From Cylindrodendrum hubeiense (taxonomy: Eukaryota > Ascomycota > Sordariomycetes > Hypocreales > Nectriaceae), in contig JAANBB010000065.1 in assembly GCA_014621425.1 (NCBI GenBank), positions 62,001-126,000 on the forward strand: 64,000 bases of DNA. Reading direction: 5' to 3'. The notes under the pieces are model-generated. The model was given only the letters and a program-made list of their open reading frames with translations, did no database searches and had not been told where the DNA came from. The position numbers and the translations under genes were made by a program. Shown piece after piece: positions 14,297-45,211 of the stretch (position 1 is the first letter of the stretch; each line of letters starts with the position of its first letter).

Positions 14297-15970
14297 ATGG
14301 CATTACAACTCAACAACGTTCCACTCTTTGCTTTAGGAATTATAACTACCTTCAAAGTTATCTGGGCCCTCTACAACGCTCTCTTCTCTCCTCATCGCCA
14401 CATCCCTGGCCCATTCCTCGCTCGATTCACGGATGGTTGGTATTTCTATCGTGTGTGGAAAGGTCACTTCGCACGCGACAACATTGCATTGCATAGGAAA
14501 TACGGCCCTATAGTTCGTTACGGCCCAAATCGCTTCAGCTTTGATCACCCCGACGCCGCAAAAATCATCTATGGAATTGGGACAGGCAAAAACTTTGCCA
14601 AGTCACCCTTCTACCGAGCGTTTAGTGTTCCAGACCCAGAGCTACCATCAATCTTCGCGCACGAAAATGTGAAGGAACATGCTGCTCTACGCAAGAAATA
14701 CCAGGGCACACATGCTATGTCGGCCCTGGTTTCGTATGAAGATTTTGTGGATGAGTGTTCAGATCTATTTGATCAACGTCTCAGAGAAATGGCGACGCAG
14801 ACAACTCCAACTGACAAAAAGTCAACCGTTGATATATCCCATTGGTTTCAATGTTACGCATTTGACGTCATTGGCTTGATCACATACTCTAAGCGGCTTG
14901 GGTTCCTCGACCAAGGGGCAGATATAGCAGGAGTCATGGCCTCCTTAGAAGGTTTCATCCAAGCCGCCAGTTTGATCGGTATATATCCATGGGTTCACCC
15001 TATCTTGTTTGCTATCCGCGACTGGTTTTCTGGCAAATCAAAGACCGGAATCGGGTACATTATCCATCTCACCCAAGATCTCATTACTACTCATGAGGCA
15101 AAGCCTAAAAATCTGGATCTCGAGAACGAGAACTCGTCACGGATGGACTTTCTATCAAAATACATGGCACGTCACCGTCAGGACCCACAGAGTTACAATT
15201 CATGGTATGTTCTGAGCGGATGCGCTTCGAATATGACCGCCGGGTCGGACACAACGGGGATCAGTTTGTCAGCCGTCCTCCACTTTCTGCTTCAATGTCC
15301 ACATACGGCTCAACGCCTACGACAAGAGGTGGATGAATGGCAAGGTAAAAATGGAAAGTCGAGGCATATCAGCTACAGTGATAGCCAGGCCATGCCATAC
15401 CTCCAAGCAGTTATTAAAGAAGCCTTGAGGCTTCATCCAGCTACTGGGCTTCCGCTAGAGAGGGTGGTACCCGAACAAGGAGCAACTATCTCAGGGCAGA
15501 TGTTTCAACCTCGGGTAAGTCAAATTCCGACTTCCGGTATTATGAAGTGATAATGAGAGACTTATTGACAAACTATCATTAGACTGTTGTTGGTGTCAAC
15601 ACCTGGGTGGAACATTCGAACCTCTCTACCTTCGGGCCTGACCCAGAAGTATTTCGACCAGAGCGTTGGCTTGACAGCGACCAGGATAAAATTGACCAGA
15701 TGAATCGTCACTGGATGCCGGTAGGTCATACTCGGCAGTGCATAAAGGTCGCTAATATTGATACTATTGCAGTTTGGCATGGGCGCTAGAACATGTATCG
15801 GGAGACACATCTCGATTCTAGAAATGTCAAAGTTGATACCTCGGATTGTGAGAGATTTTGACTTTGAGCTGCCTGGTGGGAAATACTCGCAGACAAACTA
15901 TATGGACGCCCCTAGCTACTGGTTCGTAAAGCCGAAAGACTTTAGGGTGTACGTCAAAATCAGACAATAG
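14297..15970 (+). CDS. Cytochrome P450 monooxygenase 1
   Basis: Membrane-bound heme monooxygenase, expected in the endoplasmic reticulum. Three exons (14297-15514, 15583-15720, 15773-15970) give 517 aa. An N-terminal hydrophobic anchor (PLFALGIITTFKVIWALY) is followed by HIPGPFLARF. The oxygen-binding I-helix reads TAGSDTTGIS, the ExxR motif is KEALRLHP (Glu375), then FRPERWL and the heme loop FGMGARTCIG with Cys460. It resembles the pisatin-demethylase-like fungal P450s. The frame is open 303 nt further upstream, but the ATG at 14297 begins directly before the membrane anchor and lies after a TATA-like box. It is the leftmost likely member of the cluster, and its promoter has only a variant of the shared motif. 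The substrate is unknown. Confidence 0.93.
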
Positions 15971-17635
15971 TGCGGGTGAAACTTCTTGGTAAATACTGTA
16001 AGGAATGTACAGGACGAGGTTGTACATCAATACTCTACCGGGTGTTGATGATAGCTGCGATGGAACATTCGTCACCGGTTAGGTTCATATTAGCTTCAAC
16101 TTCTTCATCACTACATATTCAGTGAGCTCCATTTGTATAGTACAGTTAGTCTCCAATTTGATAGGGCAGTTGATGATAAATTTTCCATGAAAACAATCCG
16201 TTTGACACCTCGCCTCCAACCATTTTCGATGCTAGTTGGGGTTGCTTTCTCTCCGAAACGCATGGGGAAAATACAAACAGGAGTGGGAATTTCCAAACCG
16301 CGTCAGCTTAAAGGCTTGCATTTCTTTTGGGACTAAAGTCCTTTGGTACCCAATGCATTAATCGCTTCACTTCCGACTTGTAAGTAACGGGCTGGTGCCA
16401 TAATGATAATTTATTTCATGAAATCCTAGATATGAACGATGGAGATATATGGTACCACTCTTGAACAATAATACAAGCAGGAGAATAAGATAGGAATTAA
16501 ATAAAATCCCAACCTAATAGCGCCTCAGGCCCCTCAATCTCTCGTTGTGTTTGTTGCAACATGGAGTCTGAGGTGGCTATCTGCACCTACATTTCAGCGT
16601 TTAGCTACTACACATCCTCGACCATTTCATTACGATTCTAGGGCATGAACTCAAGGCTCTAGAAGTTCCGATTTGGTTCCTGCCTACAAACAAACATTAT
16701 TTCCCCACCGGCACCGGCTGTCCACTCGGAAACATTTCGGGAGCTGTGGGGTAATAGCGCCGTGGTGTTGGGAGCCCGTTAGCTGATTTCTTTTCGGCTA
16801 GCGATATGTGGAACACTTGGGCCACAATAAACCATGTGTAGCCTGTTCCCATCTTTCACTCGCAGTTTTAAACAAAAGCAGTCGCTTGAATACTTCCAGA
16901 AGTGTCATTTCCCGCAGAGTATAGGATAGGCACACAGGAATAGACTAGTCATTTCGGATCGAACTGAGGACAGCGCATGTATTCCAGTACCAGCCCTGTC
17001 CCTCCCCAAGAATAATGTCTGCAGTTCTAACTCGGCGTCGTGAAAGGGGTTCCGAATTGTACGTATAGAGGAAGGGATTATGACCTGTGTTCTTAAGACC
17101 GTAGACAAGCTTCCACGATGAGGCTGTCAGCATTCAGTAATGAGTTACCCTTAATTACACCCATTCAATCTCGCAAAAATACCTTTGAACCGTAACTGGA
17201 CGCTGGTGTTGCTATCCATATGACTGAATGTCTCCACCAATTAAATCACGACCTTGAGTGCTAGCAAAGTGCTCAGAGTTGAATCCAGCGACCAGCCAGT
17301 AAGAATAGACTTGACCTTGATATCGATATCATTAACTCCGAACAAAATTTCACACATCTTTCTGCATTAGAAAACTAGGAACCTCGGTTAACAATACTAC
17401 TTTGCTGTAGCATAAAACGGCTTTAAGCTGGTGGTAAGTCCGGTGGGGCTGAGCTGGGCCGGTGGAGATTTACGTGGGAAGCTTCGGGGAGAGCAATGAC
17501 TTATAGCACCGGCTCCACAGTTCTGTCAGACTGTATGGTAAGGAAGCCAGGGAAGGATATAAAGCTTCATATCATGATACTCTGGAGCCAAATTGACAAA
17601 TTATTACTGGACTTAAATCACCCTCAAACACTACA
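15971..17635. other. Intergenic region with promoter of hydrolase 1
   Basis: About 1.7 kb, AT-rich, no coding stretch seen. The right end holds a GC-richer patch (17425-17520) with CCGGTGGGGCT, GGCCGGTGGAG and the exact cluster motif at 17510-17518. Confidence 0.5.
17510..17518 (+). promoter_or_regulatory. Cluster motif CGGCTCCAC (hydrolase 1 promoter)
   Basis: Exact CGGCTCCAC, ending 118 bp before the ATG at 17636. One of seven intergenic copies in the cluster. The CGG triplet fits binding by a Zn2Cys6 factor such as the one at 42292-45211. Confidence 0.65.
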
Positions 17636-19723
17636 ATGTCTTTGCAAATAAACGGTGTCAATGTGGCGATCGGCCCTGTTCTTGCACCTGAAGACAAGGC
17701 AGCTGGCGCATATGATCCCTTGAATCCTTCTACAAAGGTCATTACCAAAGGTCACCGCCGGACCGAAAAGAGCAGGCCATTTGACTCAGACGTCACATTC
17801 GAGAAGGATGTTCCCCTGCCGATGCGAGACGGCGTTAAGATTTATTGCGATATTTTTCGTCCAGTGACCGACGGAAAGACCCCTGCCATCATAATATGGA
17901 GTCCTTATGGAAAAACCGGCAATGGTGAGTGAGATCCGAGTGCGATTCTCGTATGATCGGGGAAAGTATGGTGGCGATTGTGCAAACAAGTTGCTAATTC
18001 AGCGATAATATGCAGGTCCCCATGGCTTGGATATGATTCCTGGACGGTTTGGCGTTCCCAACGACCAGGTCAGTGGCTATGAGAAGTTTGAAGGCCTTGA
18101 CCCTGCTGTGTGGCCTGCACGAGGATATGCGATTGTCAATGTAGACCTTCGAGGTTCCTGGGATTCAGAAGGAATTGTTCCGTAAGTACAGGAGGACAAC
18201 ACCCCGCGTATTTGAAATCTGCGAACTGATTTTGAGGCAGTTGGTTGGGAGAGCAAGACGGCAAGGATGGTTATGATGCCATCGAATACATTGCAAAGCT
18301 TGACTGGTGCTCCGGGAAAGTCGCTACTGCGGGAAATAGTTGGCTTGCCATGTCGCAATGGCACATTGCCGCCCAGCAGCCTCCGCACCTCGCTGCGATT
18401 GCTCCCTGGGAAGGAGCCGCTGATTTCTACCGCGACACCCTTTGTCGTGGCGGCATTGAGTATCCATATGACACCATGTGGAAACTGCTTGAAAATCTGA
18501 TGATAGGGAGAACAGGGGCAGAGTCGGTCATCACGATGCTCAAGAAGTACCCCTTATATAACGAGTATTGGGAGGACAAGCGTGTGAAACTTGAAAAGAT
18601 CAAGGCGCCAGCCTATATCTTGGCTAGTTACTCCAGCTCACTCCACACCACCGGCTCAATCCGCGCCTATAACGAACTGGGGAGCAGAGACAAGTGGTAT
18701 GTTTGCACCTGACCTTGCGGATTGTAGTCCTCTTTTTGCTGACTGCTGCAGGCTCCGAATTCACGCTAGGCAGGAGTGGTCCGATCTGTACTCGCCTGAA
18801 AGTGTCGAAGATCTCAGCAAGTTCTTCGACTACTACTTGAAGGGAATTAACAACGACTGGACCAAAACCGTACCAGTCCGAGCTTCGATTCTGGGATTCA
18901 ACAAGGCAAGTAGTGATGAGTTTGGCTCTATTACCCAGGTGCTCTACTACCAACGGTATGAGTTTTAAGCTAATAGATCATCCAGGCACCCGTTATCAAC
19001 ATTCCGTTCCCGTCTTACCCCGTTCCCCAAACTTCGTACAAGAAGTTGTATCTGGGCAGCAATGAGAAACTCAGTGAGAGTCCAATCACCGAGAATGGAA
19101 GCGAATCCTATAACGCAGAGTTCGTCCCCAAGCAACCAGAAGGTGATGAGGAGGAGATCATATTTCGCTACAAGTTTCTTAAGCCTACCTGGCTGCACGG
19201 ATACTCCCATCTCGTCCTTCATGTCGCCAATGACAGCCACGACGACATCGACGTATTTGTTCAGATCAAAAAGCTGGACTCTTCAGGAAAGCAGCTGGTC
19301 AACATGAACGTGCCCCTAGATAAGCTGATCCCCCCGGCAAATGACGTATCTGAGGTCCACAACTCCTGCTTCCTCAAGTATACCGGGCCGACAGGCTCTC
19401 TGCGAGCGAGTCATGCCATTTCGAAGGTGACTCCAAAGCCTGGAAATTTGACCGGTGACTGGCCGGAATATACACATGAGACACGAAAGCCTATCCCTGC
19501 GGGTACGATCACAAGGTTGGAGATCCCTATCTGGCCTACCGCCATCAATTTTGACGCTGGTGAGTCGCTTGCAGTCAAAGTCTCTGGTCATTATATGAGC
19601 TACATGGAGTTTGACGTCTTGTACGGCACCTCGCACAAGAACAAGGGACGTCATACAGTCCATTTTGGCGGAAAGTACGATAGTCACCTGGTTGTTCCGT
19701 TGATGGATCCTGTGTCGCAGTAA
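17636..19723 (+). CDS. CocE/NonD-family hydrolase 1 (S15-like)
   Basis: Predicted serine hydrolase of the CocE/NonD group: an X-Pro-peptidase-like alpha/beta core plus a C-terminal jelly-roll domain. Known members hydrolyse esters or amides. Five exons (17636-17924, 18016-18181, 18241-18696, 18752-18905, 18986-19723) give 600 aa. The entry motif DVPLPMRDGVKIYCDIFRP and the nucleophile elbow AGNSWLA are clear. The segment RRGIEY-like after APWEGAADFYRD is also typical. The fourth intron starts with GC rather than GT (AAG|GCAAGT, 18906-18985). This joins GFNK to APVINIPFPSYP, as expected for the family; reading straight on ends in a spurious stop. No signal peptide. It has a clear but not close paralogue at 31699-33716. 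Natural substrate unknown. Confidence 0.9.
18906..18985 (+). other. GC-AG intron in hydrolase 1
   Basis: Donor AAG|GCAAGT, acceptor ATCCAG|G, branch-like GCTAATAG. Splicing here is in phase and restores the conserved domain, whereas GT donors nearby do not. Confidence 0.75.
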
Positions 19724-20003
19724 ATATATCTTTTAGATGTGCGCATAAAAGAATACGGGTTTGATTAAATTCTGGTTGGTGACTCTTCTTTGCAATCTAC
19801 CTAAAGTGACAGACCATTCTTTCGTGTCATTGTTGTTGAATTAACGTCGTGAGGATTGTCTTAGAGCAGTCCACAAAATCACCTGTGGGCCCAAGCTATC
19901 GAGCAATTAAAGAGCCCCAAATAACCAGGGATGTTGTGGAGCCCGATATCCGTCAGCGGATTGTCAGGGCGGGTGTCGGCGTACCCATCTGTATCAACCA
20001 GCC

Positions 20004-20012
20004 AAAAAAAAA
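20004..20012 (-). terminator. Pol III terminator of tRNA-His
   Basis: Run of nine A on the plus strand, i.e. nine T on the transcript strand, 6 bp after the discriminator base of the tRNA. Confidence 0.85.
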
Positions 20013-20018
20013 TTGTAA

Positions 20019-20108
20019 TGCGGTTAGCAAGACTCGAACTTGCGTCGCCAGTGAATCGTAGATCTGTCAACCCACAAACTGGAGTACTGACCCCTATACT
20101 ATAACCGC
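20019..20108 (-). tRNA. tRNA-His (GTG) with an 18-nt intron
   Basis: The minus strand folds as a full cloverleaf. The acceptor stem GCGGTTA/TAACCGC is perfect over 7 bp. The D arm is GTAT/GTAC. The anticodon stem CCAGT/ACTGG is perfect, as is the T stem GCAAG/CTTGC with loop TTCGAGT. Box A (TAGTATAGGGG) and box B (AGTTCGAGTCT) fit. The anticodon loop reads TTGTGG, then an 18-nt intron (20054-20071) at the canonical position after base 37, then C. Without the intron it is 72 nt including the discriminator A. The anticodon GTG (20075-20073) assigns histidine. A T9 terminator follows. Confidence 0.88.
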
Positions 20109-20268
20109 TTAATACTGATTGTGTTTTTTCTCGTGTCATTGAACCGTACTTAACCTTTCACAATTTTCGGTGATCATTAGATTACAGGCCACCGATGCAT
20201 TCAGATTGAGTTATTTTGTGGAGAGCACCATCGTAGGAATCTTAACTCGACTCTCAATTGTAATCTGG

Positions 20269-22080
20269 TTAATGAAGTTCATATCCCAATATTGCCTGGA
20301 ATGCGCTCTTGAGCAGTTGCTCGTGGTCCTTCTCCGTCGCCTCCCCTCTCCAAGCAATGAACCCGTCCGGTCGAACAAGAATGACCTCACGGCTGTGAAG
20401 CCGGCATTTCTGCGCAATCTTTCCTTGGGGGTCCCGTAATGGTGAAGATTTGGGATGCAGGGCATACGTATCAATAGTTAGAGGCAGTCGATTGGTGGCC
20501 TCGATCCATGGTGAGCTGGCATCGATTGAGACGAGGACAAAGTTCTGTTTGATCAAATCGATCGACGAAGTGAGCTTGGTCGAATCTGAAGAATCCTCAA
20601 GAAGCACGTGGGGAAACCTAGACCCAGGCACTGCTGTAGGAGAGTGTGGATCATCCCAGAGCTGGATTGGTAGCTGATACTCTGCTTCAGGGACGAAGGC
20701 CCCGGCGGGATACCGATAGCCTAGCTCGATCGCAATATCATCTACTTCTGGCGCTGGCGGCTGTCGCAACACGACTCGATTCTCGAATCGATTGTAGGCC
20801 TCGAGCACAGTGAATTCGTCAATAGGTTGCCTCTCAATGCTGTAAGATGCCAACAACGAATGAGACGCCTTGCCTGTTAAGACATATGCTAGCTTCCAGG
20901 CAAGATTATGAGCATCCTGTGAGGTTAGCAACTGATCAAGAGCTATGGATGAAGTCGATAACTTACTGCTATTCCTGTGTTTCCTCCCAAACCACCAGTA
21001 GGTGGCATAATGTGAGCAGCATCACCCGCTAGGAAAACGCGACCGCCTCGACTCTCGAACCGATCCGCAGTATACGCTGCCATCGTCCAGTAGTTGAAGG
21101 TTTGGATTTCGAGGGGTATGGACCCTTCCTCCACACCAGCGCAGTCAAAGAAATACTGCTTGGCTTCCTCAACGGAGACTGAGCCAGGAGGGAAGTCGAC
21201 TTTATCGCCGACGTTATTCACCATCAAAAGTCCTTCCTTCCCTCCGTTCTCCAAGCGAAACCCCCCACCAATCTTCTCATTCATTACATAGACCACTCCG
21301 TGGACAGCTCTCTTTCCCAGATAGGGACTGAGGTCGGATTTGAAGCCGACGCTCAGGCTGTTGCGTAGAACACCGGGCCCCTCCCACTTCATACCTTCTT
21401 TCTGCCGTGTAGCGCTGCGATTGCCATCACAGGCAACCAGATAGGATGTCTTATACTTCTTGATAGTGCCTGTGGAAAGATCTTTGACCACCACAATGAC
21501 ACCATCATCTTGCTCTTCGTAGAATATTACCTCTTGTCCATGCAACTGAACACTGTTGAATTGGTCTGCATGTGCACCGAGTACCGGCTCAAACATGCGC
21601 TGAGAGATCCACACCCAATTTGAAGGTGTGACTTCTTTGACCTTTTCCGAATCATGCTCTTGCAGGTGCTTGATCACCTTTCCTCCGATGAGGCTTTCTA
21701 CCAAGAGCATTCCGGCGTTCAGGTCAAATTCCTTTGCACTCTGATCCAAGGTAAAACTTTCGAGGCCCAACTGGCGGAGGATCTCACTTGTTCGGAAGTT
21801 CAAACCAGCCGCTCGGGGATGGGTGCCTGCCGCTGGATGACGGTCGAAAGACACGGACTTGATCCTGGGAATATTTAGCGCTTCTGCAAGCCTCGATGGT
21901 CCAGCATGTTGACACTTACCCGTGATAGCCAAGGAGAAGGCCCAGGGTCTTGCCGACCATGCTTGAACCAATGATAATTACCGGCCATTGCTCCACTTCG
22001 AGCGCAATGTTGGAGTGGTCAAATTCAACGAATGAATTCGAAGAAGTCTCGTCAACCTGACGCGTCGTAGTAGAAGTCAT
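20269..22080 (-). CDS. FAD-dependent monooxygenase 1 (PheA/TfdB type)
   Basis: Aromatic-ring hydroxylase of the phenol-2-monooxygenase/TfdB group. Three exons (22080-21920, 21864-20967, 20916-20269) give 568 aa. The FAD fold is visible as PVIIIGSSMVGKTLGLLLG near residue 40, the DG motif as YLVACDGNRSATRQ, and the second FAD contact as FLAGDAAHIMPPTGGLGGN. The last ~170 residues form the thioredoxin-like C-terminal domain typical of this group (ILVRPDGFIAWRGE). The dinucleotide motif is unusual: GSSMVG instead of GxGxxG, so the second glycine is serine. The promoter (above 22080) has GTGGAGAGCCG at 22294-22304, the cluster motif with two extra bases, and not the exact 9-mer. Likely hydroxylates an aromatic intermediate with NAD(P)H and oxygen. 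Confidence 0.9.
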
Positions 22081-22787
22081 GTTTCTGAATTATTGTTTCT
22101 AAATGCTGCTCATCTGCTCTGGAGTTCTGTCTGCACGTGAGGAAACGATGAGACTGATTATTAGTGAAAGCTTGACCCTACATCCGTCTTTAAGCAAGCC
22201 ATTATTTGTGGAGATATCAATGACAGTCGTAGTGGTTGCTCCGGCTATGCCGGCCGTCGGTAGTCGCCGAATCATCTCCACAAAGCTTTACCCGGTGGAG
22301 AGCCGAAATTGTTCGATCAATCGGGGCACACGGTAACGCACGTAAACACATCCCAGTTTTGTGTTGCCGTCCTCGGAATCTCAATTCCGAGTTGCGGAAA
22401 AGGCGTAATACGTAAAAATACTCGAAGATGTCGAGGCTTGCGGGCTGGCCCCTGAGGTTTGATTCCATTGGTTCTCTTGAGCTCTCAATCAAAAATGGAA
22501 AGAGATCCGATGCCGTATAGGAGTTGAACCATAATTTACAATATAAGAAGTGGAATATGCTGAGGCTTGCGAACTGGCCTTGAAACTTCGTTTATATTGC
22601 TCCTAGTCAGAATGTGAATAACTCGATGCATCACATGTATTTAAGCACAATAATAACACCGGAAGAAAGAGGAAGTAGAAAAAGTAATCCCACAAGGATG
22701 TAAGCAGATGATTGAGTAATAGAGATAAATTGGTCAAAACTATGCAGTTCTTTGCGGAATTACGATAACCTGTAACCAACAACCTGT
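22081..22787. other. Intergenic region between the two monooxygenases
   Basis: Promoter of monooxygenase 1 and 3' flank of monooxygenase 2. Contains GTGGAGAGCCG near 22294 and a direct imperfect repeat (GAGGCTTGCGGGCTGGCC at 22433 and GAGGCTTGCGAACTGGCC at 22562). No gene seen. Confidence 0.5.
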
Positions 22788-24428: not shown

Positions 24429-24666
24429 ATTGAATAAGAGTGCAATTGACAAGTGTTGTTCGTAGTTGGGGGTTCAAAAGATCAAGCCAACAGCGTAGGG
24501 AGCAGTAGGAAAAATGCTGCGGCATCTCATGCAGACCTTCCGCATCATAATGTACTCACCAAGCTACCGGGTCTGCCTCTCAACTTGCTGAACGCCACTA
24601 CCCTAGCAGGTGATTCACATTGACTTCTTTGCAGTTACGCTCCAGACGGATTGCCAAGTGTGGCCT

Positions 24667-24675
24667 CGGCTCCAC
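24667..24675 (+). promoter_or_regulatory. Cluster motif CGGCTCCAC (monooxygenase 2 / SnoaL promoter)
   Basis: Exact copy in the divergent promoter, 239 bp from the monooxygenase 2 start and 250 bp from the SnoaL-like start. A second CGGCT follows directly, and a near-copy TGGAGCCG in the other orientation lies at 24700-24707. Confidence 0.68.
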
Positions 24676-24924
24676 CGGCTCTGGGCGCCCCGGCACATTT
24701 GGAGCCGGCCCCCCACACCGTGACTCCACAGGATTCCCCGAGCCGGGAGCGATTGAGGGCGGATGTAATGGGGTTCAATCACACAAAAGGTGCACACCTT
24801 TCTGCTGTTCCCGAGCAACACATTACCTTTGCTCACAAGAAACATCCCAACGACACCATTCCAAATCGATCGTGTCAACCGCACCACATTCTATTCTTTT
24901 CACTTTACTCACCAAACACCCACC

Positions 24925-25458
24925 ATGGTGAGCGCCGATCAAATCAAGGCTATCTTTGAGCCCATTAGCCAGGGTGACATGACCACTTTCTGGCCCCATG
25001 TGGCCGAAGATGTTGACTGGACAGTCAAAGGTATGGATGTCCTAACGCGAAACATACTAAGGGCCGCTTGATGATCGAAAGGAATATCTGACTAACGAAT
25101 TCTCACAGGCACTTGCCAGATTTCTGGTCACTATAAGTCCATTAAAGAATTTCAACAGGGAACAAAAGCACTGTCCTCGACCTGGGCTGGTCCCCTTCAT
25201 CTTGTAGTTCAGAATATCATCGTGGATGGCAACCAAGCAGCTGTGGAACTCAAGGCAGTCAATACCAAGACCAAGAGCGGCGAGCCGTTCCCGAACGAGT
25301 ATACGTGGATTCTGAGTTTCAACGAAGAAGGCAAAATTGCAACCGTTCGCGCGTACATGGACACGTGAGTAGTGATACACCAACATCCCATCCTGATGAC
25401 TGCTAACACTGAAGGCTATAGTCACCTTGTAACTCATGTTATTAAGGCAAATCCTTAG
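24925..25458 (+). CDS. SnoaL-like / NTF2-like small protein
   Basis: Small alpha+beta-cone protein of 132 aa in three exons (24925-25030, 25109-25364, 25422-25458). It begins MVSADQIKAIFEPISQGD, has the pocket-forming strand FWPHVAEDVDW, and ends VTHVIKANP. This is the layout of SnoaL-like and limonene-epoxide-hydrolase-like proteins. In fungal aromatic-polyketide pathways these act as cyclases, isomerases or accessory ring-modifying enzymes. No signal peptide. It is transcribed divergently from monooxygenase 2, with the cluster motif between them, so the two are probably co-expressed. The exact reaction cannot be read from the sequence. Confidence 0.87.
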
Positions 25459-26500: not shown

Positions 26501-27297
26501 CTGCTTGTACGATAATAGTAAAGAATATTTTGTCTCTCCAATGTAACCCCGATGAATAAAATGGACCTCAGCTTTAATATTTAGACGAAGCTTGACGAGG
26601 TATTTATTTAATGATTGGTTTCGTGATCTTACACACCTATCAGAGCATTAGTCAAATTCAAGTTTAGTGCTCGGGTGACCACACGGCTCCACACCATTAC
26701 CACCGCCGGTATCTATTTCGCAACCTCCCACCTTCATGTACAGCGGAATGTGGGGAAATGAGACAGACTCATGTTCCCGAGTCGGCTGAGTGGGAGATCA
26801 TGCATTGCCCACAGACCGTATCGAATCGTAGGGCAGTCCCCGGGTTGACGAAAGACTGTGCCGATGGTATGTCGGCATTGTGGGCTCTCTTGAAAGTCGA
26901 GATGGATCATGCCACTGTACATCGAATAAGCCTTCAACCGTGAAATTATTAGCTTGCTGATCTCCGGTTGCCCAGCAGACCGTTGCAAATTTGTGGGGGA
27001 TCTGTGTAGGAGGTAATATCGCACAAGAAAGGCTGGATAGCAGGCGTTTTGACGTATGAGATACAAATAAAACTAAACTTCACGGACAGACTTATTTCAG
27101 CGCACCTAGTGCCTTGGTAAAAGAAAAATTAAATTGGAACGGAATGGCTCAGTTCGTCCTGATCTCTTGTAGAATTGCAGGTGAAAAAGACTGAGAATTG
27201 GTGATTCTGGTGCGCTATACTATGGACACATCTACCTAGAAGAACTATGGTAACACTCCGTCACTTTAAGCCAAAGCTCAAATTCCAAATTCTTGAA
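26501..27297. other. Intergenic region with cupin promoter
   Basis: Cupin promoter with the cluster motif at 26684, then the 3' flank of the ALDH-like gene. No gene seen. Confidence 0.45.
26684..26692 (+). promoter_or_regulatory. Cluster motif CGGCTCCAC (cupin promoter)
   Basis: Exact copy, 184 bp upstream of the cupin start at 26500. Confidence 0.65.
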
Positions 27298-29235: not shown

Positions 29236-29244
29236 CGGCTCCAC
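29236..29244 (+). promoter_or_regulatory. Cluster motif CGGCTCCAC (ALDH-like / LigB promoter)
   Basis: Exact copy in the divergent promoter, 169 bp from the ALDH-like start and 130 bp from the LigB start. It is preceded by another CGGCT (29231). Confidence 0.68.
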
Positions 29245-30796: not shown

Positions 30797-31305
30797 TCAC
30801 CATTCGCCGCCGATCTTCGACTTTCCGACATCAGTGAATCGTCCGATGGTGCAGCGCCAAGCAAGCGACCAACCCTACGTAGCACAAATTAGTCTTGGGC
30901 TTTTTGAAATAGATCTGAATGCATTTTAGACTGAGTGAAACATACCGCCATGAATGAGCACCCCCAAACCATAAAACCTCCGATGACGCGGAATAGAGGC
31001 TTTTGCATCCGCTCATTGAAGTCGAGCTCCCGGTTGATCGGGCGATAGTCGGGAACGTTTCGAAAGTTGTCAGTCCACCATTCAGGGTTTGTCACAGGAT
31101 AAGGGACAAGAGGATGAGGAGCCAATGTAGCATCGAAATCTGCCGGCTGAGCCTCTCTCCGTATGTTGCCCGCTACTGTCACAAAGCCGATACGGCTTTC
31201 TCGTGCATTTGTTGATGTAGAATGCCGGATGTCATAGTCAGCCAGCAACCTCAGTGTATCAGGGTCGTCAATGCTGGCTACCGTTGTGCCGCGCGTCGAA
31301 GCCAT
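30797..31305 (-). CDS. Small one-TM protein of unknown function
   Basis: Two exons (31305-30946 and 30874-30797) give 145 aa. I do not recognise the family. The N-terminal ~95 residues are soluble and rich in charged and Pro residues (VPYPVTNPEWWTDNFRNVPD). They are followed by one hydrophobic segment (LFRVIGGFMVWGCSFMAGW) and a short basic tail ending in KSKIGGEW. The donor GCG|GTATGT and acceptor GTAG|GG give this tail; the frame that continues to 30831 does not match the phase. It is divergent from hydrolase 2 and shares its promoter, which has a near-copy of the cluster motif (ATGGAGCCG, 31502-31510) and a CGG/CCG inverted repeat. Membership of the cluster is an inference from position only. 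Confidence 0.65.
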
Positions 31306-31482: not shown

Positions 31483-31501
31483 GTGACGGCTATGCCTTGA
31501 C

Positions 31502-31510
31502 ATGGAGCCG
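31502..31510 (-). promoter_or_regulatory. Near-copy of cluster motif (ATGGAGCCG)
   Basis: One mismatch to GTGGAGCCG. Lies 189 bp before the hydrolase 2 start and 197 bp before the small membrane protein start. Confidence 0.45.
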
Positions 31511-31698
31511 AGGAATTCGAACCCACATCGTGGAGACCCGCGGAGCGGATTTAGTGAATGTTGTGATAAGGCGTCTTCTTGGTTCAACGAGTGCGAAATC
31601 ATTTATTTACAGCCTAAGATCTTTCACGAATTGGTATCGTTGTCAAGCTTTTTTCCTATCTTAATTATACACCTGCCATAGCAACTTCGACACACACC

Positions 31699-35910: not shown

Positions 35911-36135
35911 AACGATGAGTTTTAATTATGCCTCTGGGTAGTATGTCTCTTCACGAGCAAGTTCGATAACACCAGAGCTCTTATTGATGGTGAGAGATCA
36001 TTCATCACTAGCGGAGGTTTGCTTATATTTATATCACCGATTTCATTACCGACACATGTGATCCTGTTCACACTTGGAAAATGGCAGTCCGTGTGGGGAG
36101 TACCCCTCAATTCCCCGTGGGGAGCAGGCTAGCTT

Positions 36136-36144
36136 GTGGAGCCG
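36136..36144 (-). promoter_or_regulatory. Cluster motif GTGGAGCCG (MFS promoter)
   Basis: Exact reverse-complement copy of CGGCTCCAC, 226 bp upstream of the MFS start at 35910. Confidence 0.65.
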
Positions 36145-36849
36145 GCATCGTTCTCGCATTCAGGTTCGCTAATGTAAATATCAAGGTCGCTAATCCAGCT
36201 ACGTGTTAGCTTATGGGAGAGTGGGATAAGCTAATGGAGCATCAGAAGTATTTAGAATCGGTCCAGACCCGATGCTACTTTGGTAAGCAGTTCCAGCTCT
36301 CTGGAGCCGGTTTGTAAGCCAGTCAGTATCGAACTGTACGAGTACGAGATTCCCATAGCTATGACCTTGATAGAGTAGCACGAAGAGGTCGTTTCTAACA
36401 GGCGAGGGTTAAGAGCGAGAAGACTCAATTTGGGACGAAGTTCCAGGCGCGCTTGAGCAGTACATGTACGTATTGGAGAAGTCTTGCTATGTATCCAAGG
36501 TTATACGACGCTCTGTTCTCACTAAACCCCGGCCAATTTCCCTACCAATACACCTTGATAATCCCTACAAGGCGTATCATTGGGGCCGAGGCTAAGACAA
36601 CATTATCTTTGGTACACGGCCGAACCATATCCACTGGCCCCATCATTCATGATCAAAACTTCTCAGGCCATTTCGGCCTCATTGCTGGAATTGAGGGCTC
36701 GGCTACCAGTACTCAGTCAAATGATGAAATCTGATCCCTTCTAAATTCCTCTCACGGAATGCTCCGCTAACATTTCCGATTCCTTGTGCTTTTCTTATGT
36801 ATATTTCCTCCCTGAAATAAAAGCTTAGTTTATTTTCATTAGTGCCCTT

Positions 36850-36858
36850 CGGCTCCAC
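36850..36858 (+). promoter_or_regulatory. Cluster motif CGGCTCCAC (Dabb promoter)
   Basis: Exact copy, 211 bp upstream of the Dabb start at 37069. Confidence 0.65.
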
Positions 36859-37068
36859 GTTCACGTCCCGGAACCCCACGGCACCAAAGAGGAGCCGAGC
36901 ACAAGGCGGATTCCGATGTTCCGTTTGTAGTTATGCTCTTTTCCCTCACTTTTATTTGTCACTTGAACACTCTTTAGCGTTGACATAGAGTTCCCCTAAA
37001 TATTCTCAACAGCATCTATCCAACATCTTATCCACGATTTCTTTGCAAAAAGCGACCAAGTCTTGAAA

Positions 37069-37646
37069 ATGAGTATCACTCGTATTGTTCAATTGCAATT
37101 CAAATCTGGCGTTGATACCAATCTCGTCGAAGATGTACGTCCAGCACACTGCATTTCTTTCCATGATACAAACTTGGGTAAAATACTCGTATTGACATAC
37201 GCATTCTCAGTTATGCTCGCAAATCCGTGGCATGAAGGACAAGTGCCTTGATGCCAACACCAATAAACCATATATTGAGTCCATCGGGGGCGGTGTTGAT
37301 ATCTCTATTGAAGGGCTTCAGGTAAGAATGATCTCTCTTAAAAAGTCACTTCATTGTGCCTAGCTCGCCTTTTGCTATACTGGGACACCTCTGGCCTTTT
37401 ACACCCGCGGCAGTCGTTTCTCTCGTCAACATGGTGCGACTGATATAATTTGTTTCATTCATGAAATGGAATCATAGTCTCACATCTCAGTAGCACGGTA
37501 TCACCCACGCATTCATTATAAGCTTCAATAATAGAGCGGATCGCGACTATTACGCTCTCCATGATCCTGCCCACCAGGCCGTTATCCAGGCACTTCAGCC
37601 GGCAATTGACAAGGTTCAGATCATCGACCTTGTCACCAGTGATTAG
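37069..37646 (+). CDS. Dabb (stress-responsive A/B-barrel) protein
   Basis: Short protein of 109 aa in three exons (37069-37134, 37211-37321, 37494-37646). It has the dimeric alpha/beta-barrel pattern: the first strand ITRIVQLQFKSG, helix LCSQIRGMKDKC, strand ESIGGGVDIS, strand THAFIISFNN, and the helix with DPAHQAVIQALQPAIDKVQ near the end. These match pfam Dabb. The family includes olivetolic acid cyclase of plants and several fungal polyketide-cluster proteins, so a cyclase or ring-shaping role is conceivable. Each exon alone is too short to be noticed, and the gene appears only after splicing. The cluster motif lies 211 bp upstream. Confidence 0.85.
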
Positions 37647-38480
37647 TTAATTACAGAAGGTCTCGTACTGTTTTCTAGGGGTGCTTAAGACTGCAATTAC
37701 GCGTTAAGCCATATAAGTCATGCCCATTTCTCCCAAGTCAAAGGATATGGTCACGCAATCGAGATCTTCTAGAGTAGAGAGTACCAATACTACACAACAG
37801 ATGTTTACTACATGACATGGCGAAATATGAAAACTCCCCACCTTCACATGGTGTCTATCTAGTGGTTACTGTCCCGTGTGACGAACAAGTCACTCAAATC
37901 CAGTGCGTAAAACAACCATAAGAAAATGTTCGACTCTGTAATACCCGGGAGGTACTGTATCGATTAACGAAAACCAAAATAAAGTTAAGTTAGCTTCCTG
38001 TTGAGCATTACAAACATTAGCATATTGAGATCTTCACCCGGAACAAGTTTGGCTATTGCTCGGATGACCTAACCCCAGTATGGTATGACGGGAAGATATT
38101 AGCATCACAACGAGTACCAAGTCAATGTAGATAGCCCCATCTCAACCGAGACATTTCGGAACTTGCGGAATCAAATTTATTCTTACAAATCTGACGGGAC
38201 ACCGATTCTGCAGAGATCTTCCTTACTCATAGACGGGTATCCCCACGACTTCGGAAAGACGTGGGGTAGCGGGAGGGGCATAAGCCGAACCTCTCCGCCC
38301 CACATGATGACATTGAAACACGACCATCAAAGCCAATACCTCTGTAAGGGACACTTGAATAATAATCTTCAGTCAAACTGTTGAATTCTCAAATCCCATT
38401 GACTGCAACAACGTGGGGATCAGTCCAGCATTTCAATCACTAATACTTACACGCCTAGTACTGCCTTGAGCTCTGGAACC
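37647..38480. other. Intergenic region with P450-2 promoter
   Basis: AT-rich, no gene seen. No exact cluster motif; the nearest look-alike is CCGCCCCAC at about 38296, two mismatches. Confidence 0.45.
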
Positions 38481-40326
38481 ATGGCGATTATTAGTGAGAC
38501 GGCGTCGCTAGCATGGCAGTACTTACCTGCTATACTGAGCCTGCTAGCTATTCTCCATCTTTTCCGCAACTACTTCAAGCCCGGAGTGTCAGATGTCCCA
38601 GGTCCATTCTTGGCTAAGATCTCCAATGTTTGGAGGTTCATCGATGTCGCCAGGGGCAGGGCTCAAGAAACGCATCTCCGGCTGCATGAAAAGCACGGGC
38701 CTTATGTGCGATTGGGCCCAAATCTCGTCAGTGTGTTCGATTTAGATGTGTTGAAGTCCATCTATGGTATCAATAAGGGGTACACGAAGGTGGGCTATCC
38801 TGGAGTTCCTGCAGGCATACCATTGTCGTTGCTGACATTGGGCTCAGACAAGCTTCTACGAGGTCCAACAGCAACTTGCTAATGGGAAGCCAACTCAAAC
38901 TCTCTTCACCACCTTGGATGAAGACTTCCATGCTAAAATGAAGCGGCCTATCTCCTCGGCCTACTCTTTGAGTAGTCTCACTGAGTTCGAAGTCTTCGTA
39001 GACAAAACGATTGGGGTAATGATGCAGAAACTAGACGGGTTTTCTAAAGACGATAAAGTCTGTGACATGGCTATGTGGCTCCAATATTGTACGTTTTTTT
39101 AAATTCTGGGTTTTGAGATCATATGATGCTTGGAATTGGCTAACCCTTCACTAGATGCATTTGACGTCATCGGCGAGTTGACTTTCAGCAGAAGTCTAGG
39201 ATTTCTCGACGAGGGTCGAGATATAGATGGCATTATCAGCTCTTTAGAAAAGATGCAAGATTATTCAGGGAAGGTAAGACTTTCAAGGAAGCAACATGTC
39301 CATTCCAACGAATGATAAGCCTATCTCCAAAGTGCTGACAAGACTGATAATCCTACCTCTTAGATTGGGCAAATGCCTTGGCTGGACTACCTCTTCATCA
39401 AGAACCCCATAAGGCGCATGATAGGCGGCGGCTCAACAGGGGCAGTTGCACGCTTTGCGCGCGAGTGCCTCGTCGAGAGGCTGAAGCATCAAGATTCGAG
39501 TAAATCAGACGGATTAGCGCGTCGAGATTTTCTCACTCGCTTCCTCGAGGCCAAGGAAAAGCATCCAAATATAGTCACCGACGCCCAAGTTTTCTCATAT
39601 ACGCTCAGCAATGTCAACGCTGGATCAGATACGACAGCCATCTCTCTCCGTGCTGTCATCTATCTCACGTTAAAACATCCTAAGGTTCTTGAGAAACTCT
39701 GTAAAGAACTTCAAGATGCTAGAGATGCAGGCAAACTATCTATCCCGGTAACGTGGAAGGAGTCACAAGAGCTGCCATACCTTGATGCTGTTGTCAAAGA
39801 AGCTCTTCGCCTTCACCCCGCTGTTGGCCTTCTTTTGGAAAGAATTGTGCCCAAGGGAGGCCTTCAACTACCGAATGGCCCTTTGTTACCTGCAGGGACT
39901 GTGGTTGGGGTGAACCCCTGGGTCATGCACCACCATCCCCTCTTTGGAGAAGATCCTAACTCGTTTATTCCGGAACGTTGGCTTTCCAGAAATGGCGAAT
40001 CGAAAGAAGATTTCGATACAAGGAGGCAAGAAATGGCCGGTGCCACTTTTACCTTCGGAGCTGGTCCTCGCACTTGCATTGGAAAAAACATCAGTCTCAT
40101 GGAAATTTACAAGCTGATCCCATCCCTTCTACACACCTACAAGGCAAGTTTCTTTCGACATTTCTTGGCGGGGTTAAGATACGTGCCACAGGAGAGCAAA
40201 AGGCTCGTTAACATGAATCCTGGGATTTAGATCGAGTTGAACGACCCCTGTGCTGAATGGGAAACGTTCAACGCATGGTTCGTTCGACAGACAAACATCA
40301 ATGTAAAATTAACAAGAATCAGGTAA
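38481..40326 (+). CDS. Cytochrome P450 monooxygenase 2
   Basis: Second membrane-anchored P450, 514 aa in five exons (38481-38789, 38848-39088, 39155-39273, 39364-40143, 40231-40326). Features are the N-terminal anchor LPAILSLLAILHLF, DVPGPFLAKI, the I-helix NAGSDTTAISL, ExxR in KEALRLHP, FIPERWL and the heme loop FGAGPRTCIG with Cys461. The last intron begins with GC (AAG|GCAAGT, 40144-40230). Splicing it joins HTYK to IELNDPCAEWETFNAWFVRQ, the expected P450 C-terminus, while reading through gives an unrelated 29-residue tail. It belongs to the same broad group as P450 1 (both pisatin-demethylase-like, with DTTxIS I-helices), but the sequences are distinct. No exact cluster motif lies in its promoter. 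Confidence 0.93.
40144..40230 (+). other. GC-AG intron in P450 2
   Basis: Donor AAG|GCAAGT identical to that of the hydrolase 1 intron, branch-like GTTAACA, acceptor GATTTAG|A. The unspliced frame stays open and would mislead annotation. Confidence 0.75.
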
Positions 40327-40815
40327 TCCGAAGCATAGTTCAGGAGAGGTCCGTTTTGTGGCCAACAGAATCTGTTAAGCCGACATCAGCATCTGATTAG
40401 CACATATTGCGAGGGTTACTTTAAAAACAGAAGAACAAATGGCATTTAACATTAACGTTTGTATATAACTCAAAACTCTATCCCTAAATAACTATGTCAC
40501 ATCATGAAGTCGTCGTCATTATCAGTATCATAACATCATCTCGGTGATGTGTAGATGGGATGGCTTCCTGGCCTGACCTCCGCCCATCCGCGTCATCTCA
40601 TCCACATTCACCTTCCATATGCCTCCTCACCGTCAACTGAACTCAAGAACTACGTATAATCTAAGAATTTCCGTTGAACAAGATCTTAAGGTGCGTTGGT
40701 TTCATATGGAAAGCTTTTCAGCCAATTGCAAGCAGTCCGTCTTATTTACTCACAGGGAACAAAGCTATGTACAGCCCTCCACAAACTCAATATTTACCAC
40801 TTCCCTCAGACTTCC
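40327..40815. other. Convergent intergenic region
   Basis: 3' flanks of P450 2 and the glutathione S-transferase; AT-rich, no gene seen. Confidence 0.45.
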
Positions 40816-41665
40816 TCAATGTTGAGTCAACTTAGCGAGCACTGTCTTAGTAGCTGTTCGCTGGTTCACCCTGTTCCACCAAGCCTTAACATTCTTTCGA
40901 GAGTCGATTTCATTAGACAATTGCAGGCGGTGCTGGATGAAGCCGATCCATGGAACATGGAACAGATCAATCAAGCTATAGGTCTAGATATAACAGGTTT
41001 AGCAAGTGACCCGGTGCATCAGGTTAAGGAAGCAAGTCATTCGAACAACGAACCTTTCCGGCAAGATAATCCTGTTGAGATAAGGTATTCTCATAGTAAT
41101 CAAGCACTTTGCTCAACTGAGCCCTCTGTTGGTTCACGGTAGCTTCGTCGGTCTCTCCAATCCCAAGGGCCCTACGAAATGTTCGTAAGCTGACCACAAA
41201 ATACTCAGAGTACTACAGATAGCGGGGCATACTTCTTGAATATTAGTTCAAAGGCGAGCTTTTCGACAGCAGATTCGAAATAAGAGGCCTCAACGCTGGC
41301 TGCTTGCTCGAATAATGCCAAAGCTTTGTTGTCCCCTGTCGGTGGACTTAGCTCGGACGGATACCGATTCACCAGGTAACGGCAGATTGCCCGTGACTCG
41401 AAAATATTGACATCGGCATCCTGAAATGCGGGGACCTTGGCGAATGGATGGCGTTCTTTGACGTACTCCGGGTCCTTGGTGTTCTGTAAGCAAATGTTTT
41501 CGGCCCCGATATCTGTCTCAGGGGAGCTCATTGCAAACTCACTTGGTGCTCTCCTTTCTCAAAATGCAAAGTGTGAAGCTCGTATTTGATTCGAAGTTCC
41601 TCCAATAGTAATAGGACCCTTTGCGTCCGGGTGGACAAAATATTTCCGTAAACGATAGTCGACAT
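40816..41665 (-). CDS. Glutathione S-transferase
   Basis: Cytosolic GST of 219 aa, the normal family length, in four exons (41665-41543, 41483-41233, 41171-41054, 40983-40816). The N-terminal thioredoxin fold begins MSTIVYGNILSTRTQRVLLL and contains PFAKVPAFQDADVNIFESRA, with the cis-Pro (VPAF) and the glutathione-binding ESRA. The C-terminal helical domain shows LDYYENTLSQQDYLAGK, then YSLIDLFHVPW, which corresponds to the conserved N-capping region. It looks like a fungal GTT/phi-type enzyme. In a tailoring cluster it could add glutathione to an epoxide or quinone intermediate or protect the cell. The exact cluster motif lies 193 bp upstream. Confidence 0.9.
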
Positions 41666-41857
41666 GGCGAACGTATATGGAGTCAAATGATTTAGTAAGA
41701 TAGTGATAAAATTCAGGGGTTAAAGACTCACACATACACACTCACACTTAAGGTAGACGGTCCTAAGTTATGTAAGGGTCTCGGACTGGAATAAGGCACG
41801 GGCTCTAAGTCTAGAACGGCTGGGTAGATTGTTCCTGGTGGGACCCGGTGGTACCCG

Positions 41858-41866
41858 GTGGAGCCG
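41858..41866 (-). promoter_or_regulatory. Cluster motif GTGGAGCCG (GST promoter)
   Basis: Exact reverse-complement copy, 193 bp upstream of the GST start at 41665, within a small direct repeat (GGTGGGACCCGGTGGTACCCGG). Confidence 0.65.
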
Positions 41867-42291
41867 AGATGGCTGACACCCTGGCTTTGATCGTAGCGAC
41901 ATTGAGCATGGTTGGGGACTGGCACGGGGGCTTGGGGCACCATGCTGAGACCTGTTCTGTTTTTTACAATCTAGTACGTTTTTAGTTACTGCATGGAATG
42001 GAGCGAAGTTGTTTGTAACGGAGATAACGTAAGACTTGCACACTGTGGGCTCAACACGCAGTCCATAGGCGATCAATCAAGGCAGAAAGTTGGTACTGCA
42101 GACCTTTACCTCAAGATGAATGTGGTGATATTATGAGAAGAGAATTTTAGCGGAAAAGTTCAACGGCCCCTGGCCTGGTATAATTTGTATCGCAGTGGTA
42201 CGTCCTTCATATGTGCTAGTAATCGAAATACCCTGTTGATGAGATGCTTATAATAATTCGGAGCCAATACTGGGTTCAACCAGCCGACGCC

Positions 42292-45211
42292 TCATGTGTT
42301 TCTTCTAGATGTGGATATCTCGCTGGCTCGGAGACGTGTGAGAAGGTGGGAATAGGTAGAACTGATTCCCCATGCCTTCAGGGATCTCATAAGCACGACG
42401 GCCTCATCCAACAACTTGCACCGACCTTGAGCGCAGAGAAGGTTGCTAATCCCTGGTAACTTGACTCGACTCCACCCGGACTCGATCCAATCGGTGTTTT
42501 CCATGGCATCCAATGGCTTCGGCCCCAGGACCACAGTTGGCGCCGGTGACGGGTGTAAAAAGCCGTCATGGAATCGCTCGCCCAGCATCGAGTATATCCA
42601 AAGAGTGAAAACTGCTTTGAGCAGAGACACAGGCGTTCCAAAGTGCATGCAATTATTTGAACGAACCGCTTGCAGGACTCGCGCCGCATAAAAGCATGCG
42701 AGCCTTCCCTGGCCTGCAGCGTTCCTCCACTGCTCTGCCATCTGGACTAACGCTTCATCCTCCTCTTTACCGTAGATAAAATTCACCATAATGGGGGTCA
42801 GACTGCGTTTTGGGGCATTGTGGATCATCAAAGCCGTCAGAGCCATGACTTGGTGGGTCGTTGCGGCTTTGAGCTCATCCATAGGTTGTTCCAACTGCTC
42901 GTTCTCGGTCATGCTCAACAGGGCTTTCAATGCTCCTTCAGCCAGTATTTTGTCGTCATGCGCGAATCTTGGCATGCCGGGATGGCCGGCTGTCTGATCA
43001 TTGATGACATCAGAAAGATGCTGGAGCATAACTTGCTTCCCAATTGTATTGGTCTTCACCCAGGCAGTTTTCCAGCTATTGTCGGTAATAACCCGTTCCA
43101 TTGTGCTGGAGTCTCCAGGGCCTTTGTATTTCCTTTAGTCAGCACCACTTTATCTTCCTCGAATATGACTTTTGGAAGAGTAAGGGCAAGGTCGTTTCAC
43201 AACTTACCTTGAGTGGTAGAGAAACTAGCCCAACTTTGAGCAGTTGAGGCGCCCCAGCGGCTGTCTGGTTGGGGGAGCGAGTTTTGCAATTCGGCCAGAG
43301 TCATCAGGCGACTGAGGTCGAAATGGCTCTTGAAGGCGGAGTCTGTAAGCTAGAAGCATCATTTAGCCCATGTTCAAGCATGAGAGCATGAGAAAACAGT
43401 AGTCAATCTGTTCTTCAGATAATCTGTCTCAAGCTTACCCAGATCGCAAAGCCGGTACGACGGCGTTCTTCATCGAGCAACCATATCTGCCACTTCTGTG
43501 TGAGTGGTAACTGAAGCTGAGAGAACTTCTGTATGGGGAACATGGTGGTGAAAAGCCTTTTTCGCCGACCAAGAGTGACAGGCACCGACTGCAAGATCTC
43601 TGCAATTTCGAGAGTCCTTCGATCGCCGGCATACGCCAAACCCAAGTTATTGAGGACGATGGTTTGAGTCATCCATAGCTCACGACCGTTTTGGTTTATT
43701 TGCTCGCACTGTTTTCCGAGTCAGGGCTGCCCAACTCTCTTGGAACTGTGCAGGGAGAAAAAAGCCCCAATATTCTGCTGTGGACTCACCAGGACCGAGG
43801 TTTGCCGACGGATCAGCTCATGCATGGCGTTGGAACATGTGTGCGCATCTTTGAGTTGGGAAAAGTGAGCACCAATGGCCGCGACAGTAAAAACTAACAA
43901 CCAATGGGTGCCAGGAGCTGAGAAGGATGGTTTATGAAGAATGGGAAATACGGGATGGAAGAACTCAAAGTAAAGTTGTACCCAGGCATTCAGCACTGCT
44001 GTTGGTGGAATTCGCAAGTCGACGAATTTCGGGTAGGTTGGTCCATCTTGCATCTGACGAGCATATTGAGATACCCTTTTACCAACCTCCTCAGAAATAT
44101 CTTCCACGTGAGCCAGATTTTCCTGGTCAACGTCTTCCAGGGCGACGTGGGAAAGGTCAGGAAAGACGAGCTGAGCATCGACCTCGATCGAAATTGGATG
44201 GTACTGCCTCGGCTCCACGGCATCCTTGTCAATCGCTGGGGAATGGCTGCGACTGTAGAGTTCTGCCACCGCCGACGGGTCCATGTTCGAGATGGGAGGA
44301 GTGGCTGGAGCGACGACCTGGGGAGGTCTGAATTCGAGGGAGTCTAGCCAGAAACCGTTGAGTGTCTCAAAGACGGGCTCATGTTGTAAAAGCGACGGCA
44401 TCAAGCTGGCCTCAAGGTCATAATCGAGCCAGCTCCCGCTGTCAAGCGTATCTCCGAACAAGAATGAGGGCGTCGAGATTGTCGTAGTTGGATCGAAGCC
44501 AGCCAATATTGTGCCCACTTCGAGTGGCACGTCTGATTGAATCATGTGAAACTCTGGCATGGAGGTGACCGGCTCCACTGCCTCCTGGTCGGTCGGTTCG
44601 CTGTCTCCTTTCTCCTGCGTTTTCTGTGGAGACCAGGGTGCAGTCGGCATTTCAGTCGGCATTTCATTGTTTACCTCTATCGTATCGTTTGCACTATTCT
44701 CGTGGACGGTGGTTGATGGCGATATGGGAGAGGGATGGAAACTCTTGCGTCGCTTGGCCGACTTCTCGGAGGCACCGTCGGATGTCTTCCGCCTCGAAAA
44801 AGGCTCGTATAAACATTCGTAGTCATGTCGGAGGCACCGCTGGCACGGTCTCTCGCCATTGCATCGAACCTTGGAGGTGCTGCAGGACTTGCAGGCCTGG
44901 GCAACGCGCCGGCGCTCGCTCTGCCGTTCGCTATTATTCCCGTTGTCCTCCTTATCCGCATGAAGATGGATGGCCGTGTGGTGGCGGGCGAGCGAGTCCC
45001 TGCGCGTTGGTCAGTATTTAATTCCCAGGGCCGTGAAAATGCAGCAGATCCGCAGTCCTCACACTCGACCAAAGCTCTGCCCGCACTCAGAACAGGTGAA
45101 CGGTTTCTCTTTGGTGTGTGTTCGAAGATGGCGTTGGTAATGCTCTCGGCGCTGGAATGTAGTATTACAAGTGCCACAAGATAAATCGGCTTGAGTAGCG
45201 ATGGGAGTCAT
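42292..45211 (-). CDS. C2H2 + Zn2Cys6 transcription factor, likely cluster regulator
   Basis: Nuclear regulator of 864 aa in five exons (45211-45063, 44999-43790, 43702-43439, 43349-43208, 43121-42292). The N-terminus has two C2H2 fingers: [21 protein letters not shown], and [11 protein letters not shown] joined by splicing to [12 protein letters not shown] Zn2Cys6 cluster follows with perfect spacing (CKSC-6-C-5-C-2-C-6-C, residues about 75-105) and a basic linker (SAKRRKSF). An acidic, Ser/Pro-rich region comes next, and then the fungal-specific transcription factor domain ([20 protein letters not shown] onward). The Zn2Cys6 part should read CGG triplets, matching the recurrent CGGCTCCAC. 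The extra C2H2 fingers could read the TCCAC part; this is inference. The gene stands at the right edge of the cluster. Confidence 0.92.
44210..44218 (+). promoter_or_regulatory. CGGCTCCAC copy inside the regulator CDS
   Basis: Exact copy within exon 2 of the transcription factor, where the coding strand encodes AVEPRQ. It may be a chance result of coding for VEP. Confidence 0.3.
44570..44578 (+). promoter_or_regulatory. Second CGGCTCCAC copy inside the regulator CDS
   Basis: Exact copy within exon 2 of the transcription factor (coding strand AVEPVT), 360 bp from the other. Confidence 0.3.

Follow-up and report, generated by a model that had tools for sequence, protein, structure and literature searches.

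The window analysed here, a 64,000-nucleotide stretch of the Cylindrodendrum hubeiense genome (contig JAANBB010000065.1, positions 62,001 to 126,000), contains a gene cluster with 15 modelled starts, extending from P450 gene 1 at 14297 to a regulator gene at 45211, and the promoters of this cluster share the nine-base word CGGCTCCAC. Read on the opposite strand the word is GTGGAG-CCG, which is the hexamer predicted for the two C2H2 fingers of the regulator with a CGG triplet abutting it. We propose that CGGCTCCAC is probably the cluster's own cis-element, a composite site for both DNA-binding domains of one dual-specificity factor.

Matches to Pfam families on single exon pieces support two P450 genes, two hydrolases (PepX_C or Peptidase_S15), a FAD_binding_3 monooxygenase (FMO1), and SnoaL, cupin, LigB, Dabb and GST genes. 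Scanned pieces of FMO2, the ALDH-like gene, MFS and a small open reading frame (ORF) gave no Pfam match at 0.001, and these four names are labels assigned by eye. Because LigB, an extradiol dioxygenase, is accompanied by monooxygenases and hydrolases, and no large synthase was seen among the 20 pieces scanned, which cover part of the window, the gene content suggests a cluster for aromatic catabolism or detoxification.

A word shared by the cluster promoters

The exact copies of CGGCTCCAC, and the extended form CCGGTGGAGCCG that two of them belong to, are as follows.

17510..17518, plus strand: exact match in the promoter of hydrolase 1 (ATG at 17636)
24667..24675, plus strand: exact match in the divergent promoter of FMO2 (24428, minus) and SnoaL (24925, plus); the extended form CCGGTGGAGCCG is read here on the minus strand
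26684..26692, plus strand: exact match in the promoter of the cupin gene (start 26491, minus)
29236..29244, plus strand: exact match in the divergent promoter of the ALDH-like gene (29067, minus) and LigB (29374, plus)
36136..36144, minus strand: exact match in the promoter of the MFS gene (start 35910, minus)
36850..36858, plus strand: exact match in the promoter of the Dabb gene (start 37069, plus)
41858..41866, minus strand: exact match in the promoter of the GST gene (start 41665, minus)
41855-41866, plus strand: extended form CCGGTGGAGCCG in the GST promoter
44210..44218, plus strand: copy within the regulator gene; the minus strand encodes the in-frame Val-Glu-Pro of a conserved DAVEPR
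44570..44578, plus strand: copy within the regulator gene; the minus strand encodes an in-frame Val-Glu-Pro at residues that differ in the homologue P0001

An earlier note on this DNA had reported nine copies, all between 17.5 and 44.6 kb, against a chance expectation of about 0.5, and each of these statements is borne out: an exact string count of the window returns the same nine positions and no further one, dinucleotide shuffles give a mean of 0.57 copies and a maximum of 2, and the genome-wide rate corresponds to 0.56 per 64 kb. Among all 9-mers of the window it ranks first in frequency. An exact count over the whole genome finds 414 copies in 47,533,381 bases (8.7 per Mb), the same word read backwards having 799, and the rate of 8.5 per Mb outside the cluster compares with 763 per Mb in the cluster promoters, a 90-fold difference. 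Such a concentration in the promoters of one cluster, with rarity elsewhere, is the pattern expected for the promoter motif of a pathway-specific regulator.

The seven promoter copies lie upstream of nine start codons, as two of the promoters (FMO2/SnoaL and ALDH-like/LigB) are divergent. The spacing of 118-250 bp from site to start given earlier for the nine genes agrees with our measurements to the near end of each site, the far end being at about 126-258 bp. Both copies in the regulator gene are in-frame GTG-GAG-CCG codons, and one of them falls in the DAVEPR that is kept in homologues P0001, P0004 and P0061; they are therefore weak evidence for regulation, and are probably coding coincidences rather than sites.

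Background comparisons below draw on 200 kb of the genome (about 0.4%) and 30.7 kb of window flanks, in which each open frame of at least 200 aa was given a promoter of 300 bp upstream of its first ATG, such that intron-split starts may be misplaced; the cluster intervals and starts were placed by hand. Divergent promoters count twice in the 15-gene figures, and 12 merged intervals give the same picture.

Corrected for window position as well as for the full set of 131,072 9-mers, the Poisson probability is 0.0012 for nine copies in 27 kb and 0.0026 for seven within the hand-set promoter intervals, which total 9.2 kb. Taking the seven promoter copies alone over all 27 kb raises the figure to 1.5 with both corrections, and it is thus the promoter placement that carries the case for the 9-mer. 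The copy count by itself is good evidence and not overwhelming; placement and the word tests make the case. Shuffled promoters contain a mean of 0.06 copies where 7 are observed, a number reached in none of 500 shuffles. The earlier note had named an equal frequency in unrelated promoters as the result that would speak against the word, and in the sample of 56 background promoters the 9-mer does not occur.

A shorter form of the word is more widespread in the cluster than the exact 9-mer. The seven-base core CGGCTCC (GGAGCCG on the other strand) is present in eight of the 11 hand-set promoter intervals, with 12 occurrences in all, and is absent from five convergent 3' regions (2.9 kb). It lies within 300 bp of 12 of the 15 modelled starts and before only 1 of the 56 background promoters' starts; the exact 9-mer precedes 9 of the 15, and the core adds P450 gene 1, the small ORF and hydrolase 2. 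Further cores and related words are:

14233..14239, plus strand: core in the promoter of P450 gene 1 (start 14297, plus)
22292..22300, plus strand: CCGGTGGAG, with CCG 5' of GTGGAG, in the promoter of FMO1 (start 22080, minus)
24701..24707, minus strand: second core in the FMO2/SnoaL promoter
31504..31510, minus strand: core, as CGGCTCCA, between the small ORF (31305, minus) and hydrolase 2 (31699, plus)
36303..36309, minus strand: core, as CGGCTCCA, in the MFS/Dabb intergenic region
36891..36897, minus strand: core close to the Dabb start
45357..45375: inverted pair GTGGGG-N7-CCCCAC in the regulator promoter, about 150 bp before the start, of possible use in autoregulation

The regulator and the word predicted from its fingers

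The regulator gene is encoded on the minus strand at the edge of the cluster, and its parts are:

45063..45211, minus strand: exon 1, with C2H2 finger 1 (contacts R, E, H, R) and the first half of finger 2
43724..44999, minus strand: part of exon 2, with the rest of finger 2 (R, D, S, R), a Zn2Cys6 domain (PF00172) and the start of Fungal_trans (PF04082)
42292..43723, minus strand: remainder of the gene, placed from ORFs

Pfam finds zf-C2H2 on exon 1 and Zn_clus and Fungal_trans on exon 2, with no match on the piece 42295-43134. An intron (donor GTGAGG, acceptor CAG) divides finger 2, and splicing restores it to a 22-residue reading that is identical, letter for letter, to that of homologue P0001 from Ilyonectria robusta. 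The product thus has two adjacent, tightly spaced C2H2 fingers near the N-terminus, followed after a linker of about 24 residues by one Zn2Cys6 domain, and the same arrangement is present in eight homologues. This is the domain order of the dual C2H2 and Zn2Cys6 factors treated in passages of Shelest 2017 (PMC5415576), among them the melanin regulators Cmr1 and Pig1 and nine Aspergillus nidulans factors, although the enzyme cluster described here does not resemble the melanin cluster of Cmr1 and Pig1. According to these passages, 140 of 191 fungal genomes (73%) encode factors of this dual-specificity class, which deserve experimental characterisation, and domain deletions in Cmr1 indicate that the Zn cluster is required and that loss of the C2H2 fingers lowers output (PMC5415576). 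No published DNA site for a dual factor was recognisable from titles, the starts of abstracts, and passages including those of PMC5415576, PMC10617112 and PMC12426039.

At helix positions -1, 2, 3 and 6 finger 1 has the contacts R-E-H-R and finger 2 has R-D-S-R, and both sets are unchanged in all eight homologues that a pattern scan of 76 identified as having both fingers and the Zn2Cys6 domain; P0020 matched finger 1 only, and the other 67, many of them partial or without an N-terminus, were unmatched. Under the canonical C2H2 code these contacts read GTG-G(A/G)G, finger 1 taking the 3' triplet of the target. For the DNA-binding region as a whole the composite model would give GTGGAGCCG as the target. 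The GTG-GRG prediction was recorded before words other than the 9-mer and its neighbours in the window were counted; at that time the 9-mer, and hence GTGGAG, was already known and the promoters had already been read by eye. In a passage of PMC3077364 the helix RSDSLLR serves as finger 1 in a protein that targets 12 bases, the last three being GTG.

The predicted word is found before every one of the 15 modelled starts within 300 bp, including those of P450 gene 2 and the regulator, both of which are without the core, compared to 19 of 56 background promoters. When the 64 words of the form N1N2N3-GRG are ranked in the cluster promoters GTG stands first, with 35 occurrences against 14.0 expected from non-coding background and 14.2 from promoter background; shuffles give 8.8, and none of 500 reaches 35. 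Relative to mixed background, GTGGGG ranks first among the 6-mers of these promoters (19 vs 4.2). Reversed control words are without significant enrichment (GRGGTG, 0 vs 1.85; GCCGAGG, 2 vs 0.46, p 0.12). The stress word AGGGG was also considered and rejected, being present in 4 of 15 cluster and 22 of 56 background promoters.

CCG lies directly 3' of GTGGRG at 7 of 35 cluster sites and 2 of 267 background sites, and directly 5' at 6 of 35 and 5 of 267 respectively; the excess is greatest at a spacing of 0, a weaker one being seen at a spacing of 2 on the 3' side (4/35 vs 4/267). Taken by promoter, GTGGRG with an abutting CCG occurs in 10 of 15 from the cluster and in none of the 56 background promoters. 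The double form CCGGTGGAGCCG, with CCG on both sides, has nine copies genome-wide, two of them in this cluster.

These counts bear on the suggestion in the earlier note that the CGG core of the word suits the Zn2Cys6 factor encoded at the cluster edge. The Zn2Cys6 domain and the CGG are both present, but two C2H2 fingers precede that domain, and CGG accounts for just a third of the word, the other six bases being those that the C2H2 contacts predict. Similarly, the regulon of nine genes proposed there has the promoter word before all nine and is nonetheless probably too short a list, given the core at 12 and GTGGRG at all 15 of the starts; it probably also takes in both P450 genes, hydrolase 2, FMO1, the small ORF and the regulator itself.

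A proposed composite site and its rivals

We put the probability that CGGCTCCAC is a composite cis-element for both domains of the dual-specificity factor encoded at 45211-42292 (minus strand) at about 0.6. In the more specific form of this model, for which we see roughly even odds, the C2H2 fingers bind GTGGRG and the Zn2Cys6 domain binds CCG abutting on either side, and it is the combination, a 9-bp element, that marks the whole cluster. The C2H2 pair would anchor on GTGGRG, finger 2 on GTG and finger 1 on GRG, and the Zn2Cys6 domain, tethered by the linker, would take the abutting CGG triplet, which adjoins GAG in the 9-mer and GTG in other copies. An AlphaFold model of homologue P0001 assigns pLDDT <50 to the stretch between the domains (residues 71-84) and mostly 66-87 to the domains themselves; the overall confidence of that model is low (pLDDT 47.3, pTM 0.25), and we used it solely for the linker and the two domains. 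A low-confidence linker between fairly confident domains makes a loop to either side conceivable. Sites with both halves would be strong and GTGGRG alone weaker, and by binding with both domains at once the factor may switch on some 15 genes, P450 gene 1 through GST, as well as its own gene through the GTGGGG sites in its promoter. Across the 12 merged promoter intervals, the pair at 45357-45375 is the sole inverted arrangement of GTGGRG in which the gap is 0-25.

Several observations weigh against the composite site. The word GTGGGGCCG does not occur in the cluster promoters, and since the finger code favours GGG at least as much as GAG its absence is unexpected. Since the Zn2Cys6 domain follows finger 2, CCG would in the simplest arrangement lie next to GTG; in the 9-mer it directly adjoins GAG instead, and the linker would have to loop back to reach it. 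The absence of GTGGGGCCG, and the placing of CCG away from the point where the Zn2Cys6 domain is attached, hold our confidence to the value given above. The core is not found in the promoters of P450 gene 2, FMO1 and the regulator, and 4 of the 11 cores in merged 300-bp intervals are without the GT. Relative to non-coding background GTGGGG is seventh among 6-mers (19 vs 6.2), and there are smaller excesses of the triplet elsewhere, with CCG 10 bases 5' of GTGGRG (3/35 vs 3/267) and CGG 3 bases 3' (4/35 vs 3/267).

One rival is that the word is a true element of the same regulator but is read by one domain only, namely the C2H2 pair, with the neighbouring CCG either fortuitous or bound by a partner, or the Zn2Cys6 domain, reading CGG and its flanks; we regard this as unlikely, while giving it appreciable weight. 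Enrichment of GTGGRG persists where no CCG abuts it (20 vs 6.0, p 7e-6), and Zn2Cys6 factors commonly read CGG. Several A. nidulans relatives of the dual factors have damaged C2H2 fingers, according to passages of PMC5415576. Yet on either side CCG abuts far more often than in the background, the GGAGCCG core discriminates better than GTGGRG, and contacts that are constant in 8 of 8 two-finger homologues are not those of decaying fingers. We rejected a Zn2Cys6 reading through a classical CGG dyad as the principal explanation: the site shares with classical ones a CGG triplet and a regulator adjoining its targets, but no fixed dyad accounts for most of the promoters, and the conserved neighbour is the C2H2 word. 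The CGG-N6-CGG direct repeat has the lowest p of 63 dyad spacings (8 vs 1.9, p 0.0008, about 0.05 after 63 tests) and is present in just 5 of 12 promoter intervals; its spacing is the one inside the double form CCG-GTGGAG-CCG.

A two-protein alternative is that GTGGAG is a carbon-repression site for CreA/Cre1, with the adjacent CGG serving the Zn2Cys6 factor, as might befit a catabolic cluster. CreA finger 1 has contacts that presumably resemble R-E-H-R, and GTGGAG is a perfect fit to 5'-SYGGRG-3', the CreA consensus (taken from a passage of PMC5795998) and the site of the CreA/Cre1/Mig1 repressors. The present case differs in that GTGGRG alone is enriched, with CCG abutting, and CreA would not be expected to prefer that one form. 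The remaining SYGGRG words are flat by each count: 20 vs 20.4 in shuffles, 12 vs 11.8 in merged 300-bp promoters, and 11 of 15 vs 34 of 56 promoters (p 0.28). We therefore rejected CreA as the principal explanation and consider it improbable.

Still more doubtful is that the reader of the word is a transcription factor unlinked to the cluster and not the neighbouring regulator. The genome does offer candidates, in that the regulator's DNA-binding region matches 121 stretches at E up to 0.01, two of them its own, and several dual paralogues have similar finger contacts. But the other copies of the 9-mer are ungrouped: among 375 of the 414 places listed, no other stretch of about 31 kb holds more than 3 copies by eye, the remaining 39 places including the window's own 24667 and 41858. 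A close pair on contig C340 falls within one 243-aa open frame, 6 of the first eight 10-mer copies listed lie in open frames of at least 130 aa, and the copies examined give no sign of a wider regulon. Finally, that the pattern arose by chance, base composition or duplication is hardly credible: the word was chosen post hoc, seven copies over 27 kb are unremarkable after double correction, and FMO2 and SnoaL share one site and ALDH-like and LigB another, but the promoter shuffles, the corrected 0.0026 within promoters and the reversed controls all argue otherwise, and the flanks of the nine copies appear unrelated by eye, which speaks against duplication.

The regulator class is already known, whereas the composite-site model is new; the literal CGGCTCCAC is contained in 169 papers, and none of the 40 listed has a title that points to a fungal promoter motif. 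If the model is correct, it would supply a defined composite target for a widespread and poorly characterised class of dual-specificity factors, and finger residues together with an abutting CGG could be used to locate the regulons of other such factors.

Paralogues, relatives and neighbouring features

One paralogue with paired fingers, L031 (G000:C146:170815-171126), has contacts R-E-H-R and R-D-V-R. On C146 the 9-mer is at 21595 only, among the matches listed, and not near the paralogue at 170815. Sites for paralogues with similar contacts, of which L031 is an example, may be predictable by the same approach.

Penicillium riverlandense has homologues of both the regulator (P0013) and LigB (P0091), on contigs of equal size (5,656,217), hinting that the regulator and LigB travel together and that a conserved cluster may be present in a distant genus.

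The small ORF at 30892-31305 (minus strand), which shares its promoter core with hydrolase 2, encodes about 138 aa from its ATG, with a likely membrane segment near the end, as judged by eye. We note that a tRNA-Thr gene (TGT) of 90 bases lies inside the cluster at 20019-20108 (minus strand), between hydrolase 1 and FMO1, and that one published abstract carries CGGCTCCAC inside a primer. Downstream of the cluster, HAM1-like N- and C-terminal domains at 49932-52346 (plus strand) belong to an apparently unrelated gene.

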